Positions 18,857 to 41,179 of a DNA stretch of 64,000 nt are shown one piece after another. A model generated the notes under the pieces. It did not search any database. It was given only the letters and a program-made list of their open reading frames with translations, and was not told where the DNA came from. The DNA comes from Rivularia sp. T60_A2020_040. GTDB taxonomy: Bacteria; Cyanobacteriota; Cyanobacteriia; Cyanobacteriales; Nostocaceae. Position 1 is the stretch's first letter. Each line of letters starts with the position of its first letter. Location: the NCBI GenBank assembly GCA_015272215.1, contig JACYMD010000083.1, positions 1-64,000 of the forward strand, written 5' to 3'. The translations under genes and the position numbers were made by a program.

Positions 18857-20734
18857 ATGAGAAATTCTCAAAATAATCAGTTTGATTACGTAAAAATTGG
18901 CTTAGCTTCACCAGAACGTATTCGTCAATGGGGAGAAAGGACTTTACCTAATTCTCAGGTAGTTGGTGAAGTTACAAAACCGGAGACAATAAACTACCGG
19001 ACCTTAAAGCCAGAGATGGACGGGCTTTTTTGCGAACGCATTTTTGGTCCGGCAAAAGATTGGGAATGCCATTGCGGTAAATATAAGAGAGTCCGTCACA
19101 GAGGTATTGTCTGCGAGCGCTGCGGCGTAGAAGTTACCGAATCGAGAGTACGCCGCCACCGCATGGGTTACATTAAACTGGCAGCCCCGGTAGCTCACGT
19201 CTGGTATCTCAAAGGGATTCCCAGTTATATTTCCATCTTGCTGGATATGCCTTTGCGAGATGTAGAACAAATAGTTTATTTCAACTCCTATGTAGTGCTG
19301 AGTCCGGGTAATGCCGATTCATTAACTTACAAGCAATTGCTTACAGAAGACCAGTGGCTGGAAATTGAAGACCAAATTTACAGCGAAGATTCCCAGTTAG
19401 AAGGAGTGGAAGTCGGCATTGGTGCGGAAGCTTTACTGCGGCTGCTTGCGGATATTAACCTAGAACCAGAAGCTGAAACCTTGCGAGAGGACATTCTTGT
19501 TGCCAAAGGTCAAAAGCGAGCCAAGTTAATCAAAAGATTGCGGGTTATAGATAACTTTATCGCTACCGGCTCCAAACCCGAATGGATGGTGATGACAGTG
19601 ATTCCCGTAATTCCTCCGGATTTGCGCCCGATGGTACAGCTCGATGGCGGTCGTTTTGCTACCAGCGATTTGAACGACCTTTATCGCCGCGTAATTAACC
19701 GTAATAATCGTTTGGCGAGATTGCAGGAAATTCTTGCTCCTGAAATTATCGTCCGTAACGAAAAACGAATGCTGCAAGAAGCAGTAGACGCTTTGATTGA
19801 TAACGGTCGTCGCGGACGTACTGTAGTCGGTGCAAATAACCGTCCGTTGAAATCATTGTCCGATATTATTGAAGGAAAACAAGGACGTTTCCGGCAAAAC
19901 TTGTTGGGTAAACGGGTTGACTATTCCGGAAGAAGCGTAATTGTAGTTGGACCTAAACTTCAGATTCACCAGTGCGGTTTGCCTAGGGAAATGGCAATCG
20001 AATTATTCCAACCTTTTGTAATTAATCGGTTGATTAGAAGCGGCATGGTGAATAATATCAAAGCCGCCAAGAAGTTAATATCTCGAGCTGACCCCCAAGT
20101 TTGGGATGTTTTAGAAGAAGTCATCGAAGGACACCCGGTGATGCTCAACCGTGCGCCGACTTTGCACCGTTTGGGTATTCAGGCTTTTGAACCAGTATTA
20201 GTAGAAGGAAGAGCAATTCAACTGCATCCTTTGGTATGTCCTGCCTTCAACGCGGATTTTGACGGCGACCAAATGGCAGTACACGTACCTTTATCTTTGG
20301 AATCGCAATCCGAAGCAAGATTGTTAATGCTCGCTTCCAACAACATTCTTTCCCCTGCTACAGGTCAGCCGATTATTACCCCCAGCCAAGACATGGTATT
20401 GGGAGCATATTATTTAACCGCAGAAAATCCTGCCGCTACCAAAGGTGCCGGGGGCTATTACGCTTCTTTAAATGACGTAGTAATGGCTTACGAACAAAAA
20501 CAAGTAGACTTACACGCCTACGTTTACGTCCGCTTTGACGGCGAAACGGAACAGGATGTAGATGATAGTAAGCCGGTAAAGATCGAAGAAAATGATGACG
20601 GTACCCGGACTTTACATTACAAATTCCGTCGCGTTAGACAAGATGCGTCAGGAAATTTACTTTCTCAGTACATATACACTACACCGGGTCGTGTTATTTA
20701 CAATGTTGCCATTCAAGAAGCTTTGGCAAGTTGA
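18857..20734 (+). CDS. rpoC1: DNA-directed RNA polymerase subunit gamma (N-terminal part of beta-prime)
   Basis: In cyanobacteria and plastids beta-prime is encoded by two genes, and this 625-residue protein is the N-terminal one. The zinc-binding site [20 protein letters not shown] is near residues 70-90. The clamp and lid regions follow, and the active-site motif NADFDGD, which holds the catalytic Mg, is near residue 463. The C-terminus ends at VAIQEALAS. The stop codon TGA is itself part of the STRR array that follows (GTTGACA heptads). This arrangement is the normal split and not a frameshift. Confidence 0.98.
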
Positions 20735-20850
20735 CAGTTGACAGTTGACAGTTGACAGTTGACAACTAACCACCATCAACTAACCACCAACAACTAACCA
20801 CCAACAACTAACCACCATCAACTAACCACTATCAACTAACAACTAACTAT
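20730..20850. repeat. STRR arrays filling the rpoC1-rpoC2 gap
   Basis: Four to five copies of GTTGACA start at the rpoC1 stop codon. They are followed by about ten looser heptads of the complement type (AACTAACCACCA and variants) up to the rpoC2 ATG. The GTTGACA and CAACTAAC parts can pair. No unique sequence is left between the two genes except the last few bases, so any rpoC2 ribosome-binding site lies within repeat sequence. Confidence 0.8.
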
Positions 20851-20851
20851 T

Positions 20852-23800
20852 ATGAGTATAATTTTTCGCAACCGTGTGGTTGACAAGAAACAACTAAGAA
20901 AGCTAATCTCCTGGGGCTTTACCAATTATGGTACGGCACGGACGGCGGTAATGGCAGATAAACTCAAAGAGTTGGGTTTCCGCTACGCGACTCGTGCCGG
21001 GGTTTCTATCAGCATTGATGATTTAATGGTACCTCCCTCCAAACGCTCGCTCCTTGAAGCTGCGGAAGAAGAAATTCGGGCGACTGAAAAACGTTATCAA
21101 CGTGGGGAAATTACTGAGGTAGAACGTTTCCAGAAGGTAATTGATACTTGGAACGGAACTTCGGAAGCTCTCAAAGATGAGGTAGTAACTCATTTTAAAA
21201 GCAAAGACCCGCTCAACTCGGTATACATGATGGCGTTTTCCGGCGCACGGGGTAACATATCCCAGGTGCGTCAGTTGGTGGGAATGCGGGGGCTAATGGC
21301 TGACCCCCAAGGGGAAATCATCGATTTACCAATTAAAACCAACTTCCGTGAAGGATTGACTGTTACTGAGTATATTATTTCTTCCTACGGTGCGCGGAAG
21401 GGATTGGTGGATACAGCGCTCAGAACTGCTGACAGTGGTTATTTAACCAGACGTTTGGTGGATGTATCTCAGGATGTGATTATCCGGGAAACCGACTGCG
21501 GTACGTTGCGGGGCATCAATGTTTTGCCGATGAAGGAAGGTGATAAAATCTTGATTCCTCTGAGCAATCGCTTGTTGGGCAGAACTGTTAATCAAGATAT
21601 CGTCCATCCTAAAACTGGTGAAGTCATCGCAGTCCGCAATACAGCGATTGATGAGGATTTGGCCTCGGTGATTGAAGCATCGGGAGTGGAATTCGTTAAT
21701 GTTCGTTCTCCCCTAACTTGCGAAGCTGCTCGTAGTGTTTGTCAGCAGTGCTATGGTTGGAGTTTGGCTCATGCCAAAATGGTCGATTTGGGAGAAGCAG
21801 TGGGAATTATTGCTGCCCAAAGTATTGGTGAACCAGGAACCCAATTAACCATGCGTACTTTCCACACTGGTGGTGTATTCACTGGGGAAGTCGCGCAACA
21901 AGTACGAGCCAAAGCCGACGGGACTGTAAAATTCAAAGGTAAATTCCGCACCAGACCTTTCCGCACCCGTCACGGTGAGGAAGCTTTGTTTGTGGAGACC
22001 AGCGGGATAATGAATTTGGAACCCCAAGGTAGTCCTAAAGGTGCGGCGATGGAAATTAGCATTACCAAAGGTTCAACTTTGTACGTTACCAACGGTGCTA
22101 AAGTCAAGCAGGGTCAACTGTTGGCAGAAGTTGCTTTGGGAGCCAGAACAACTCGAATTAATACTGAGAAAGCGGTAAAAGATGTTGCTTCTGATATTGC
22201 CGGACAAGTAAAATTTGCCGATGTGGTGGCAGAGCAAAAAACTGACCGTCAAGGGAATACCACGACTACAGCGGTCAGGGGTGGTTTGATTTGGATTTTC
22301 TCCGGAGAAGTATATAATTTACCTCCCGGTGCCGAATTGGTAGTTAAAAATGGCGATCGCATTCTTCCTTCGGGTGTAATTGCTGAAACTAAGTTGACTT
22401 CGATTCATGGTGGTGGTGTAAGGCTGCCCGAAGCGACTCCGGGTAAGAATACCCGCGAGATTGAGATTATTACTGCGTCGATTGTGTTAGACCGAGCAGC
22501 GGTAACGGTGCAGAGTTCTCAAGGTCGGAATAATTATTTAATTAGTACTGCCAACAACCAAGTATTTAACTTGCGAGCAACTCCCGGCACCAAGGTGCAG
22601 AACTCTCAGGTAGTAGCAGAATTAATCGATGACCGCTATCGTACCAACACTGGGGGATTGTTGAAATTCTCTGGGGTGGAGGTGCAGAAAAAAGGTAAAG
22701 CCAAGCAAGGTTATGAAGTGGTGCAAGGAGGTACCTTGTTGTGGATACCCGAAGAAACTCACGAAGTTAACAAAGACATTTCCTTGTTGATAGTCGAAGA
22801 TGGTCAATTTGTCAATGCTGGGGATGAAGTTGTTAAAGATATCTTCTGTCAGAACAGCGGTGTGGTGGAAGTGACCCAGAAAAACGACATCTTGCGGGAA
22901 GTGGTGGTTAAACCAGGAGAACTGCTGATGGTCGATGACCCAGAAGCTGTGATGAGTAAAGATGGTACTTTTATTCAGGCTGGAGAAGAGTTTTTAGGTA
23001 CAACCTTTACCGAACTGCGCTACATCGAGTATGTAGAAACACCAGAAGGACCGGCAATCTTGAGCCGTCCGGTAGTAGAATTTCCTGTACCAACCAATCC
23101 CGACGTACCTTCTACCACTTCCGCAAACGAAGAAGGTGGACGTTCGATTCAGTTAAAAGCAGTACAAAGAATATCTTACAAAGACTCCGAACGCATCAAG
23201 TCAGTAGAATCGGTAGAACTGTTGCGGACGCAGTTGGTATTGGAGATTGGACAAGAAGGAGAAGAACACAATACTTCTCCTTTGGCTGCGGACATCGAAT
23301 TAATTCCCGATGAAAACGATCCAGAAATTCAGCGCTTGCAATTGGTAATATTGGAATCCTTGGTGATTCGGCGCGATATTGCGGCTGATGCGACTCAAGG
23401 TAGTACCAAGACCAACTTAGAAGTAGAAGACGGGTTAACTATAGAACCTGGTGCTGTAGTAGCGCGGACACAAATTCTGTGTAAAGAAGGAGGTGTCATC
23501 GGCGGCGTAAAAGTAGGCACAGACGCACCCCGTCGCTGCTTGATATTACGCAATGCCGATATGTTTACTATTAACCTCGATCAACCTCCTACTTGTAAAG
23601 TCGGCGATTTGCTGGTAGAGGGTGTAGAAATTGCTCCTGGAGTATTCGCAGAACAATCGGGAGAAGTGGTTGATGTTGGTAATCAACAGTTGACAGTTGA
23701 CAGTGGACCTGGGACAGGGGACAGTGGACAGTTGACAGTGGATAGTGGACAGTCTCCTTATTATGTGACTTTGCGGATGGGTCGTCCTTATCGGGTTAGT

Positions 23801-25006
23801 CCGGGAGCAGTGCTGCAAGTTGAGGATACGGATTTGGTGCAGCGCGGTGATAACTTGGTGTTGTTGGTATTTGAACGCGCTAAGACTGGGGATATCATTC
23901 AAGGTTTACCTCGAATTGAAGAACTCTTAGAAGCTCGTAAGCCCAAGGAAGGGTGTATGTTAGCTCGCAGAGCCGGGGAAGTCAAACCAGTTTACGGTGA
24001 CGGTGATGAGGCGATCGCAATTAAGGTGTTGGAAGCTGGAGGAGTAGTCACCGATTATCCCCTCGGACCGGGACAAAATATGGTAGTTTCTGAAGGGCAA
24101 ATGGTGGCTACTGGTCAACCGTTGACAGATGGTCCTTCTAATCCTCATGAAATCTTGGAAGTATTTTTTAACCAAGGTTCCGATGAGGGAGTGTATGCTT
24201 GTACCAGTCTGGCGTTGCAAAAAGTGCAGACCTTCTTGGTGAACGAGGTGCAATCGGTGTATCAATCCCAAGGTATTGAGATTTCCGACAAACATATTGA
24301 AGTAATTGTCCGGCAGATGACTTCCAAAGTGCGATTGGATGATGGCGGGGATACTACAATGCTACCTGGGGAATTGATTGAACTGCGACAAGTGGAACAA
24401 GTCAATGAAGCCATGTCGATTACTGGGGGAGCTAAGGCGCAATATACTCCAGTGTTATTGGGGATTACCAAAGCATCATTAAATACCGATAGCTTTATCT
24501 CAGCGGCTTCATTCCAAGAGACGACACGGGTGTTGACTGAAGCAGCAATTGAAGGAAAGTCTGACTGGTTGCGGGGTTTGAAAGAAAACGTAATTATCGG
24601 TCGATTGATTCCGGCGGGTACAGGATTCAACGCTTATGAAGAAATGGGTATTGTTGATGACTATACCTCAGAGATGAACTCAGGCGGCATACTCGATGAA
24701 GTCGATGACCCTTTGGATATGGTTCTAGACGATAGGACAGCCCGTAATTACAACCTTGATTCTCCGAGCATAGTACCAGAAGGCTTTGGGTTGAGGAGTA
24801 CATCGCGATCGATCTTAGATGACGATAACGATTTGATGAGCGATAACCTGGGGGTAAATGTGGATGAAGATATTAAGGGGTTAACACCCATGCAAGTTGA
24901 GAATGACAATGATGACGATGACTTTGATGACGATAGTCTTTTAGGAGAATTTGAAGACGAAGACGAAGACGATGACGATGATGACTTCATGGATTCGGAC
25001 GATTAA
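20852..25006 (+). CDS. rpoC2: DNA-directed RNA polymerase subunit beta-prime (RpoC2)
   Basis: This is the C-terminal part of beta-prime. Residues 120-220 carry the bridge-helix region ([40 protein letters not shown]), and the zinc cysteines are in [14 protein letters not shown] near 290. A large cyanobacterial insertion (SI3) in the trigger loop spans about residues 345-1000. The C-terminal half of the trigger loop is at [20 protein letters not shown] near 1010, and [11 protein letters not shown] near 1148. The C-terminus is an Asp/Glu-rich tail of about 40 residues. Unusually, residues 946-967 are encoded by an in-frame STRR array, 66 bases long and so frame-preserving. The total of 1384 residues is somewhat long for the family. 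Confidence 0.97.
23687..23752 (+). repeat. STRR array inside the rpoC2 coding sequence
   Basis: Nine heptads of CAGTTGA/CAGTGGA type plus three bases, 66 bases in all, encode [20 protein letters not shown] and a few more residues. The same heptad forms the arrays just outside the gene at 20730 and 25008. It sits near the C-terminal boundary of the SI3 insertion, just before [15 protein letters not shown], where the family normally continues directly. Confidence 0.85.
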
Positions 25007-25007
25007 A

Positions 25008-25034
25008 CAGTTGACAGTTGACAGTTGACAGTTA
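25008..25034. repeat. STRR array directly after the rpoC2 stop
   Basis: About four copies of CAGTTGA begin two bases past the rpoC2 TAA. The heptad is the same as in the rpoC1-rpoC2 gap and inside rpoC2. It lies between rpoC2 and the convergent GH5 gene. Confidence 0.8.
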
Positions 25035-40450: not shown

Positions 40451-41035
40451 TCAATTATACTGCTGTATTTTCCAAAAGTAACTAGAGACTAAATTCGTGA
40501 CAATATGAGCAACTATGGGAACTAATAAATTACCAGTTAAAAGAGCGCTGTAACCCAAAATCATTCCCACAATAGTTGCCCAAATTACATAAGCCCATTG
40601 CCCAGAACCACTCAAATGTAAAACACCAAAACAAATACTTGACACAATTACCGCTAAGTGATTAAAGCCTAAAGCCGGTAACATAACTCCTCTGAACAAT
40701 AATTCTTCACTCAATCCAGGTAGTAATCCCAACCAAATCAAATCTGGTAATGCTAAAGGTTTGAGTACAATTTCCAAATAATAATTGGCGCTTTGACGGT
40801 AAACTGGAAAAAAGCGATAAGCTAAACTACTTAAGCCGGTAATAGTTAATCCTAATCCAACTCCAATCAAAAATTCCTTTTGATTCCAATGCCAAGACAT
40901 TAAGTAAAAATTACCAAATTCCAGGCATAATTTGGCTATAATCCACAAAATAATAGCTGTCAATCCCATTGCCATTAGGACTTGAGTACGTGTCAAGTAT
41001 GGAATTTCTGGCTCGTTTTTTTGCTGTTGTGTCAT
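40451..41035 (-). CDS. CPBP family intramembrane glutamic endopeptidase
   Basis: A polytopic membrane protein of the CPBP (CAAX protease/bacteriocin-processing) family. Motif 1, LSEELLFRG (EExxxR), is near residue 112, motif 2, SICFGVLHL, near 140, and motif 3, PIVAHIVTNLVS, near the C-terminus, so the catalytic residues are retained. About six transmembrane helices are visible. The start is set at the ATG at 41035 (MTQQQKNEPEIPYLTR), giving 194 residues. The frame extends 46 codons further upstream, but that part reads through STRR heptads and the inverted-repeat arm and is not credible coding sequence. The gene is bracketed by the two arms. Substrates are unknown. Confidence 0.85.
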   Translation of the reverse strand: MTQQQKNEPEIPYLTRTQVLMAMGLTAIILWIIAKLCLEFGNFYLMSWHWNQKEFLIGVGLGLTITGLSSLAYRFFPVYRQSANYYLEIVLKPLALPDLIWLGLLPGLSEELLFRGVMLPALGFNHLAVIVSSICFGVLHLSGSGQWAYVIWATIVGMILGYSALLTGNLLVPIVAHIVTNLVSSYFWKIQQYN

Positions 41036-41040
41036 TCGAT

Positions 41041-41179
41041 TTTGGATTTTGGATTTTGGATTTTGGATTTTAAATTTAGGACTTAGCAAAAAGGCACATT
41101 TTTTTGCAACGGGTGTGTGACACTTTGAGTAATTTTTAACGTAATAATAAGCTTCTTCTGTGTCACGCACCAACTGAGT
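41041..41179. repeat. Right arm of the long inverted repeat flanking the CPBP gene
   Basis: Near-perfect inverse of 40282-40416. It begins with TTTTGGA heptads next to the CPBP start codon and ends at ACTGAGT. Because the arm lies immediately upstream of the gene, it contains or replaces its promoter region. Confidence 0.8.

Follow-up and report, generated by a model that had tools for sequence, protein, structure and literature searches.

The tandem repeats of 7-base units (heptads) in heterocyst-forming cyanobacteria, called STRRs, form several families per genome and lie mostly between genes. To our knowledge, the mechanism by which heptad repeats spread is an old open question. A repetitive insertion in the plastid rpoC2 gene of grasses was reportedly described by Cummings, King and Kellogg in 1994, in a paper said to name slipped-strand mispairing in its title. 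An in-frame 21-bp indel in grass rpoC2 is given in the accessible part of another study (PMC3161095), and heptads of Calothrix and Nostoc are mentioned in the available text of PMC4692102. For the Beggiatoaceae, the available sections of MacGregor (2015; PMC4679880) describe TAACTGA repeats, including those in an alternate RNA polymerase beta'-like ORF, already make the point that this unit places stops in all three frames, and state that no mechanism is evident for its spread. The stops arise in one orientation of those repeats, and there is one in-frame case in a surface loop of the beta'-like protein (LSVINYQLS); the ORF belongs to a second beta'-like gene whose catalytic site is incomplete, and its repeats stand in the open orientation. 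In Rickettsia, genome-wide repeats of ~150 bp, the Rickettsia palindromic elements (RPEs), lie in frame within the proteins of many genes (PMC10969869, as excerpted). Known kinds thus cover the parts of the case considered here: STRRs, in-frame protein repeats, and a length-variable rpoC2 in grasses. In the accessible text of the literature on comparable repeats, no report was found of a convergent repeat site in canonical RpoC2 or of a TGA-free register, and heptad repeats in canonical RpoC2 appeared in none of the titles and abstract openings among the matches listed (full-text literature, with most subscription journals lying outside it).

The array described here lies in a window of 64,000 nucleotides, the whole stretch of DNA that was analysed, from Rivularia sp. 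T60_A2020_040. The gene rpoC2 for the RNA polymerase beta'' subunit occupies 20852..25006 on the + strand (1384 aa; equivalog match TIGR02388/PRK02597). Within it, at 23687..23752 (+), 66 bases consisting of nine degenerate CAGTTGA-type heptads plus CAG are translated in frame as the 22 residues 946-967. The heptads read, in order, CAGTTGA, CAGTTGA, CAGTGGA, CCTGGGA, CAGGGGA, CAGTGGA, CAGTTGA, CAGTGGA and TAGTGGA, followed by CAG; three of the nine are the exact CAGTTGA unit, and the remainder are CAGTGGA-like or further diverged. TRF called the array at 23686-23753, with period 7 and 9.7 copies. At lag 7, 47 of 58 positions matched. When the codons of the gene were shuffled 300 times, the score averaged 24.8 and peaked at 34, so the array is not a chance product. 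A heptad repeat at the protein level was ruled out, the period being 7 bases and not 7 residues, with lags 5, 8, 10, 11 and 13 empty or nearly so. An earlier note, made from the sequence alone, had described a 66-base heptad STRR in frame inside rpoC2, and the TRF call, the translation and the codon shuffles all bear this out.

No reading frame of a pure CAGTTGA array is free of TGA: because 7 is not a multiple of 3, every frame meets each heptad register once per 21 bases. Of the 72 forward frames of 24 sampled CAGTTGA arrays, 70 were closed. Each third heptad must therefore be a TGA-free variant, and the window heptads with a would-be in-frame TGA, namely numbers 3, 6 and 9, read CAGTGGA, CAGTGGA and TAGTGGA. 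The nearest relatives are Richelia sp. SL_2_1 (locus L056, genome G007), whose nine-heptad array is equal in length and differs in three heptads, and Plectonema cf. radiosum LEGE 06105 (L039, G001), whose array of 45 bases has six heptads forming two identical 21-base blocks. Over the three loci, all 8 critical heptads were TGA-free, compared with 6 of the 16 others (Fisher P 0.006, indicative only, the genomes being related). It had been proposed that the array could vary in length by steps of three heptads provided that the frame was kept; the lengths of 66 and 45 bases agree with this, but keeping the frame is insufficient without a TGA-free heptad at every third place. Because CAGTGGA heptads are also present in other arrays of the window's genome, where the reversed GGTGACA pattern (equal to the CAGTGGA unit) has 39 matches, the TGA-free variants may have been part of the array on arrival and need not have originated at this site. 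The array thus differs from the Beggiatoaceae case in lying in RpoC2 itself, in the closed orientation with TGA-free heptads, and at a site used in many lineages.

The placement of the array near the C-terminal edge of the SI3 domain, also asserted earlier, is correct, and the array falls in SI3-fin. It lies within a hypervariable linker at 23657..23773 (+; RpoC2 residues 936-974, SGEV to LRMG), which is a recurrent landing site of repeats. In a phmmer search against cyanobacterial polymerases, the alignment with Synechococcus elongatus broke at this linker (query to 947 and again from 969; chain 948 and 945). By the SI3-tail offset in the accessible part of PMC10120043, the linker falls within the SI3-fin of Synechocystis (884-973), at around residue 937. 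An AlphaFold model of the fin fragment (64 sequences) had a mean pLDDT of 69.8, with strands at 937-944 and 970-979 and pLDDT below 50 at 947-966. Foldseek placed 8emb, a crystal structure of Si3, on top together with cyanobacterial RNAP; the TM-score to 8emb was low (0.37), so the model supports the identity of the domain and not its details. A model of residues 347-1037, nearly all of SI3, was poor (mean pLDDT 41). Judging from the fin model, the linker loop is probably exposed and disordered. An RPE-like insertion would place a dispersed element in frame at a tolerated position; in the present case the unit is dispersed in the genome, the array is in frame and the host loop is predicted to be disordered. 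The array is made of 66 bases of direct heptads and is not a palindromic element of ~150 bp whose encoded peptide is conserved; RPEs occupy many genes, whereas here a simple heptad array is concentrated in one loop. Grass plastid rpoC2 shares the gene and an in-frame 21-base indel, but that insertion is grass-specific and plastid-borne, and the likeness is drawn at the level of the gene.

Measured from SGEV to LRMG, the linker has 39 residues in the window and 28-58 in 79 named relatives, with a median of 30.5 over the 80 distinct full RpoC2 sequences (window included), five of which have a longer linker than the window's. Under a narrower definition of the linker, five genomes of the genus without the repeat (G002-G006, loci L012-L016) have 32-34 residues against 36 in the window, and a 7-base period is not discernible in their loops (lag-7 matches 8-14 of 35). 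The net gain of the window loop is 2-4 residues over its genus mates and ~8-9 over the median, and the earlier description of 22 extra residues in a protein of fixed length was overstated, as the array fills a length-variable loop. Alignment with relatives was the check proposed earlier: the repeat is absent from the five genus mates and has nine or six heptads in carriers, and the genus mates' loops are nearly as long. Since those loops are 2-4 residues shorter and lack the 7-base period, the alignment does not show a simple insertion, and the array possibly replaced other sequence. A conserved, non-repetitive loop of equal length in all relatives was ruled out: the sequences are unconserved and the lengths vary, the loops of the genus mates being non-repetitive and nearly as long. 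When the indel intervals of the 80 RpoC2 sequences were ranked, three of the top eight lay in the linker; other sites of high length variation were the C-terminal acidic part and residues 391-397, 823 and 568. The pattern yielded no linker at L037, L070, L072 and L093, nor at L172, L179, L181-L184, L186 and L187; in the second group L172 was readable separately and the others are contig ends; L001-L008 are pattern loci without rpoC2. Matches came from 215 genomes of the family, under half of which were read at the DNA level, and the remainder mostly have the common linker length.

These lengths bear on an adaptive reading, in which the loop length or charge encoded by the repeats tunes the SI3 swing that is coupled to the folding of the trigger loop, and the repeats supply useful length variation. 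SI3-fin, where the loop is located, moves as the trigger loop refolds, which agrees with such a role, as do the effects of removing SI3-head or the RTRHG loop in the available parts of PMC10120043 and PMC10802570. The reading is nevertheless improbable: the loop ranges over the whole span of lengths given above, the peptides of different units differ in sequence, and catalysis was not influenced by Si3 when wild-type and Si3-less enzymes were compared, according to the accessible text of PMC10802570.

Eight different heptad units occupy the linker across the Nostocaceae. Besides CAGTTGA, these are ACAACGG/ACAACTG in Dolichospermum and Cuspidothrix (L102, L111, L114/L178) and at L158; GGTGACA at L164, L137, L174 and L123; AGGCAGG at L106/L162, L127 and L035; GTTAGGA in Nostoc and others (L028, L100, L116, L168, L176); CTCCCCA in Nodularia (L099) and at L139; GGGAGCA in Hassallia (L110/L180); and CACCAAT at L163. 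The earlier note had called a repeat in a core polymerase subunit striking; inside genes of this genome such arrays are indeed rare, but it had gone unnoticed that the same loop hosts unrelated heptad units in other lineages. Among 99 distinct full-length rpoC2 genes, a set that includes genes fetched for their long linkers, 19 heptad arrays were found in 16 genes, 17 of them in the linker and two at a second SI3 site near residue 568. In the fair set of 77 distinct genes not chosen in this way, there were 12 coding arrays in 10 genes, of which 11 fell in the linker and the remaining one at the second site (10 of 11 in the linker without the window), and the linker makes up ~2.6% of RpoC2; five further period-7 matches in this set sit before the start codon and disappeared once the genes were trimmed. 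The number of genes scoring in the 77-gene set was 14 at lag 7 (5' non-coding sequence included), 6 at lag 14, and 0-1 at lags 5, 8, 10, 11 and 13. Counted by linker, heptad arrays were present in 10 of 77 distinct linkers from named loci, with 0-1 at lags 5, 6, 8, 9 and 10; in 6 of 28 for L010-L038, with none at control lags; and in 18 of 61 for the partly selected L119-L188, with 0-2 at control lags. L158, for which the stretch was taken too long (87 residues), was left out of these prevalence counts. On an rpoC2 tree (a quick FastTree run with the linker columns removed and 25 open forks), the presence of arrays changed 12 times, at least 10 of these changes being forced by starred branches; looser thresholds gave 13-15 changes, and treating all Dolichospermum-complex rows as carriers gave 8, with GAGTTAG, a rotation of GTTAGGA, merged with it in the counts of 8 and 13-15. 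The placement is therefore not peculiar to this genome: whichever short repeat is spreading, it has come to lie time and again in a single loop of an essential enzyme.

Several further features of these genes were recorded. At L143 in a Nostoc (G187:C552:14563-14583), GTTAGGA heptads of the linker flank the in-frame palindrome GAGACGCGATTAATCGCGTCT, which has 56+58 matches in G187 and is the nearest parallel to the RPEs. The sequence CCCTTCGACTCCGCTCAGGGC in the linker of G099 was rejected as a dispersed repeat, as it occurs once in that genome. L162 and L164 carry the heptad arrays at the second SI3 site near residue 568, where L164 has a GGTGACA stretch followed by its complement. At L185 (G065:C1:777400-783600), rpoC2 seems to be split at the linker, and the preceding region is present twice in different frames, either a partial tandem duplication at the repeat or a misassembly. 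Two rpoC2 matches were found in each of two genomes, G089 (C2, two places 72 kb apart) and G109 (C1 and C3).

The CAGTTGA unit belongs to a large repeat family of the genomes that carry it in rpoC2. The 17-mer CAGTTGACAGTTGACAG has 611 matches in the window's genome (G000), 198 in G001 and 237 in G007, overlapping ones counted, whereas none of the 23 other genomes has more than 5 and the genus mates G005 and G006 have 0 and 1; of the 26 genomes compared, CAGTTGA arrays are abundant only in the three with an rpoC2 copy. For GGTGACA, the four linker carriers have 103, 52, 49 and 131 matches, but counts are also high in G223 (646; second site) and G021 (51), both with AGGCAGG linkers, with 21 in G238 and 1-14 in six others. 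AGGCAGG has 69, 3 and 3 matches in its linker carriers and 45, 29 and 24 in three genomes without a linker copy. The match between linker and genomic pool is thus not general, and AGGCAGG does not separate carriers from others. The reversed unit was useless as a control for CAGTTGA, being the same repeat; for GGTGACA it is the CAGTGGA unit. In 698 kb of the window's genome, a non-random sample of 41 stretches (the window plus contigs 1-40, each taken whole or up to 20 kb from its start), 105 heptad arrays reached the threshold of at least 28 of 35; 98 were intergenic, five lay at ORF ends and two inside ORFs, in sequence of which ORFs took up ~76% by a crude ORF pick. An array within a gene is therefore unusual in this genome. 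The rpoC2 array has the tandem units and the dispersal of an STRR and differs from typical ones in lying in frame in a core polymerase gene with a stop-free heptad pattern; a place between genes is typical of STRRs and not strictly defining, intragenic heptad repeats being on record (PMC4679880 and PMC4692102, in their available text). The other of the two arrays inside ORFs is a GATTTTG heptad array at 41027-41088 of the window, in the 5' (N-terminal) part of a CAAX-protease-like (PF02517) ORF at 40451-41173 (minus strand), whose true start may be downstream.

Two other accounts can be weighed against this pool. In the first, slippage expanded one or two heptads, present by chance at the site, into the array with no import from other arrays; the exact duplication of the 21-base block in L039 speaks for it. 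This account is possible but doubtful, as the unit is an amplified family in three genomes and nearly absent from two genus mates, and as the CAGTTGA and CAGTGGA heptads that occur together in the window array are each also present in arrays elsewhere in the genome. A single ancient insertion in a common ancestor, since decayed, with units differing by drift alone, would explain why the genus mates, which have no array, keep loops of nearly the window's length, as is to be expected of decayed repeats. Eight different units, the agreement of CAGTTGA and GGTGACA with repeats abundant in carrier genomes today, and the low lag-7 scores of the genus mates' loops speak against it, and we rate it slightly below even the adaptive reading.

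The spacers around rpoC2 carry heptads as well. An array at 20729..20764 (+) between rpoC1 (18857..20734, +) and rpoC2 includes four CAGTTGA copies at 20735-20762, on the same strand as the rpoC2 array, and the TGA stop of rpoC1 (20732-20734) belongs to it; a 14-base CAACTAACCACCAT array follows and extends to 20840. Downstream, an array at 25007..25033 (+) has three full CAGTTGA copies (25008-25028). Of the claim that the identical heptad sits directly outside the gene at both ends, the 3' half is accurate, this array starting one base after the rpoC2 stop. At the 5' end, in contrast, the array adjoins the end of rpoC1 and stops ~90 bases before the rpoC2 start. In L056 the rpoC1-rpoC2 spacer holds GGTAATT and CGATTACCCATCC-like repeats in place of CAGTTGA and CAACTAACCACCAT, and L039 has a CCCATTA repeat in front of rpoC2; the 3' spacer has three CAGTTGA copies in the window, five in L056, and GTGAGGA/GTTAGGA in L039. 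The spacer units differ among these closest relatives, and whole arrays therefore turn over fast where coding places no hold on them. On the contig of L056, a MAG, rpoC2 falls into two ORFs near residue 1082, probably through a sequencing frameshift. An assembly artefact might be suspected, since repeats break assemblies and the contigs of G206, G216 and G217 end within linker repeats (9-base units by eye); it is ruled out by the three separate records (window, L056/G007 and L039/G001), which agree on the site and the frame with different heptads, and its probability is close to nil.

The array is very probably a copy of the genome's own amplified STRR in a tolerated landing pad, the loop joining two strands of SI3-fin. 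Repeats would keep arriving throughout the genome, and copies within genes would be lost by selection unless the protein tolerated them, the SI3-fin loop being the main tolerated place in RpoC2. An array on the CAGTTGA strand would survive there only with a length that is a multiple of 3 bases and with each third heptad free of TGA (here GTGGA), and after arrival it would be altered by base substitutions, while whole 21-base (three-heptad) blocks would be added or dropped. The route to a new site may be slippage from a seed, or template switching or ectopic repair from other arrays. The structure model and the variability of the linker point to a disordered, tolerant loop whose length and sequence would hardly matter, and its changes may be neutral. 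Tolerance combined with selection is the explanation with the fewest assumptions, and because related cyanobacteria carry different repeats in it, the loop gives the impression of a natural place for repeats to land safely. A bolder and rather unlikely extension holds that STRRs are mobile selfish sequences and that the SI3-fin loop is an insertion trap catching the expanding repeat family of each lineage, nested palindromes included; if this were true, the loop would be a dated recorder, and an assay, of heptad-repeat spread. With one tolerated site and eight units, the insertions are comparable and have alignable flanks on both sides, which allows the donor, the edges and the step size to be worked out. 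The loop also marks a place in the cyanobacterial RNA polymerase that would probably accept tags or inserts.
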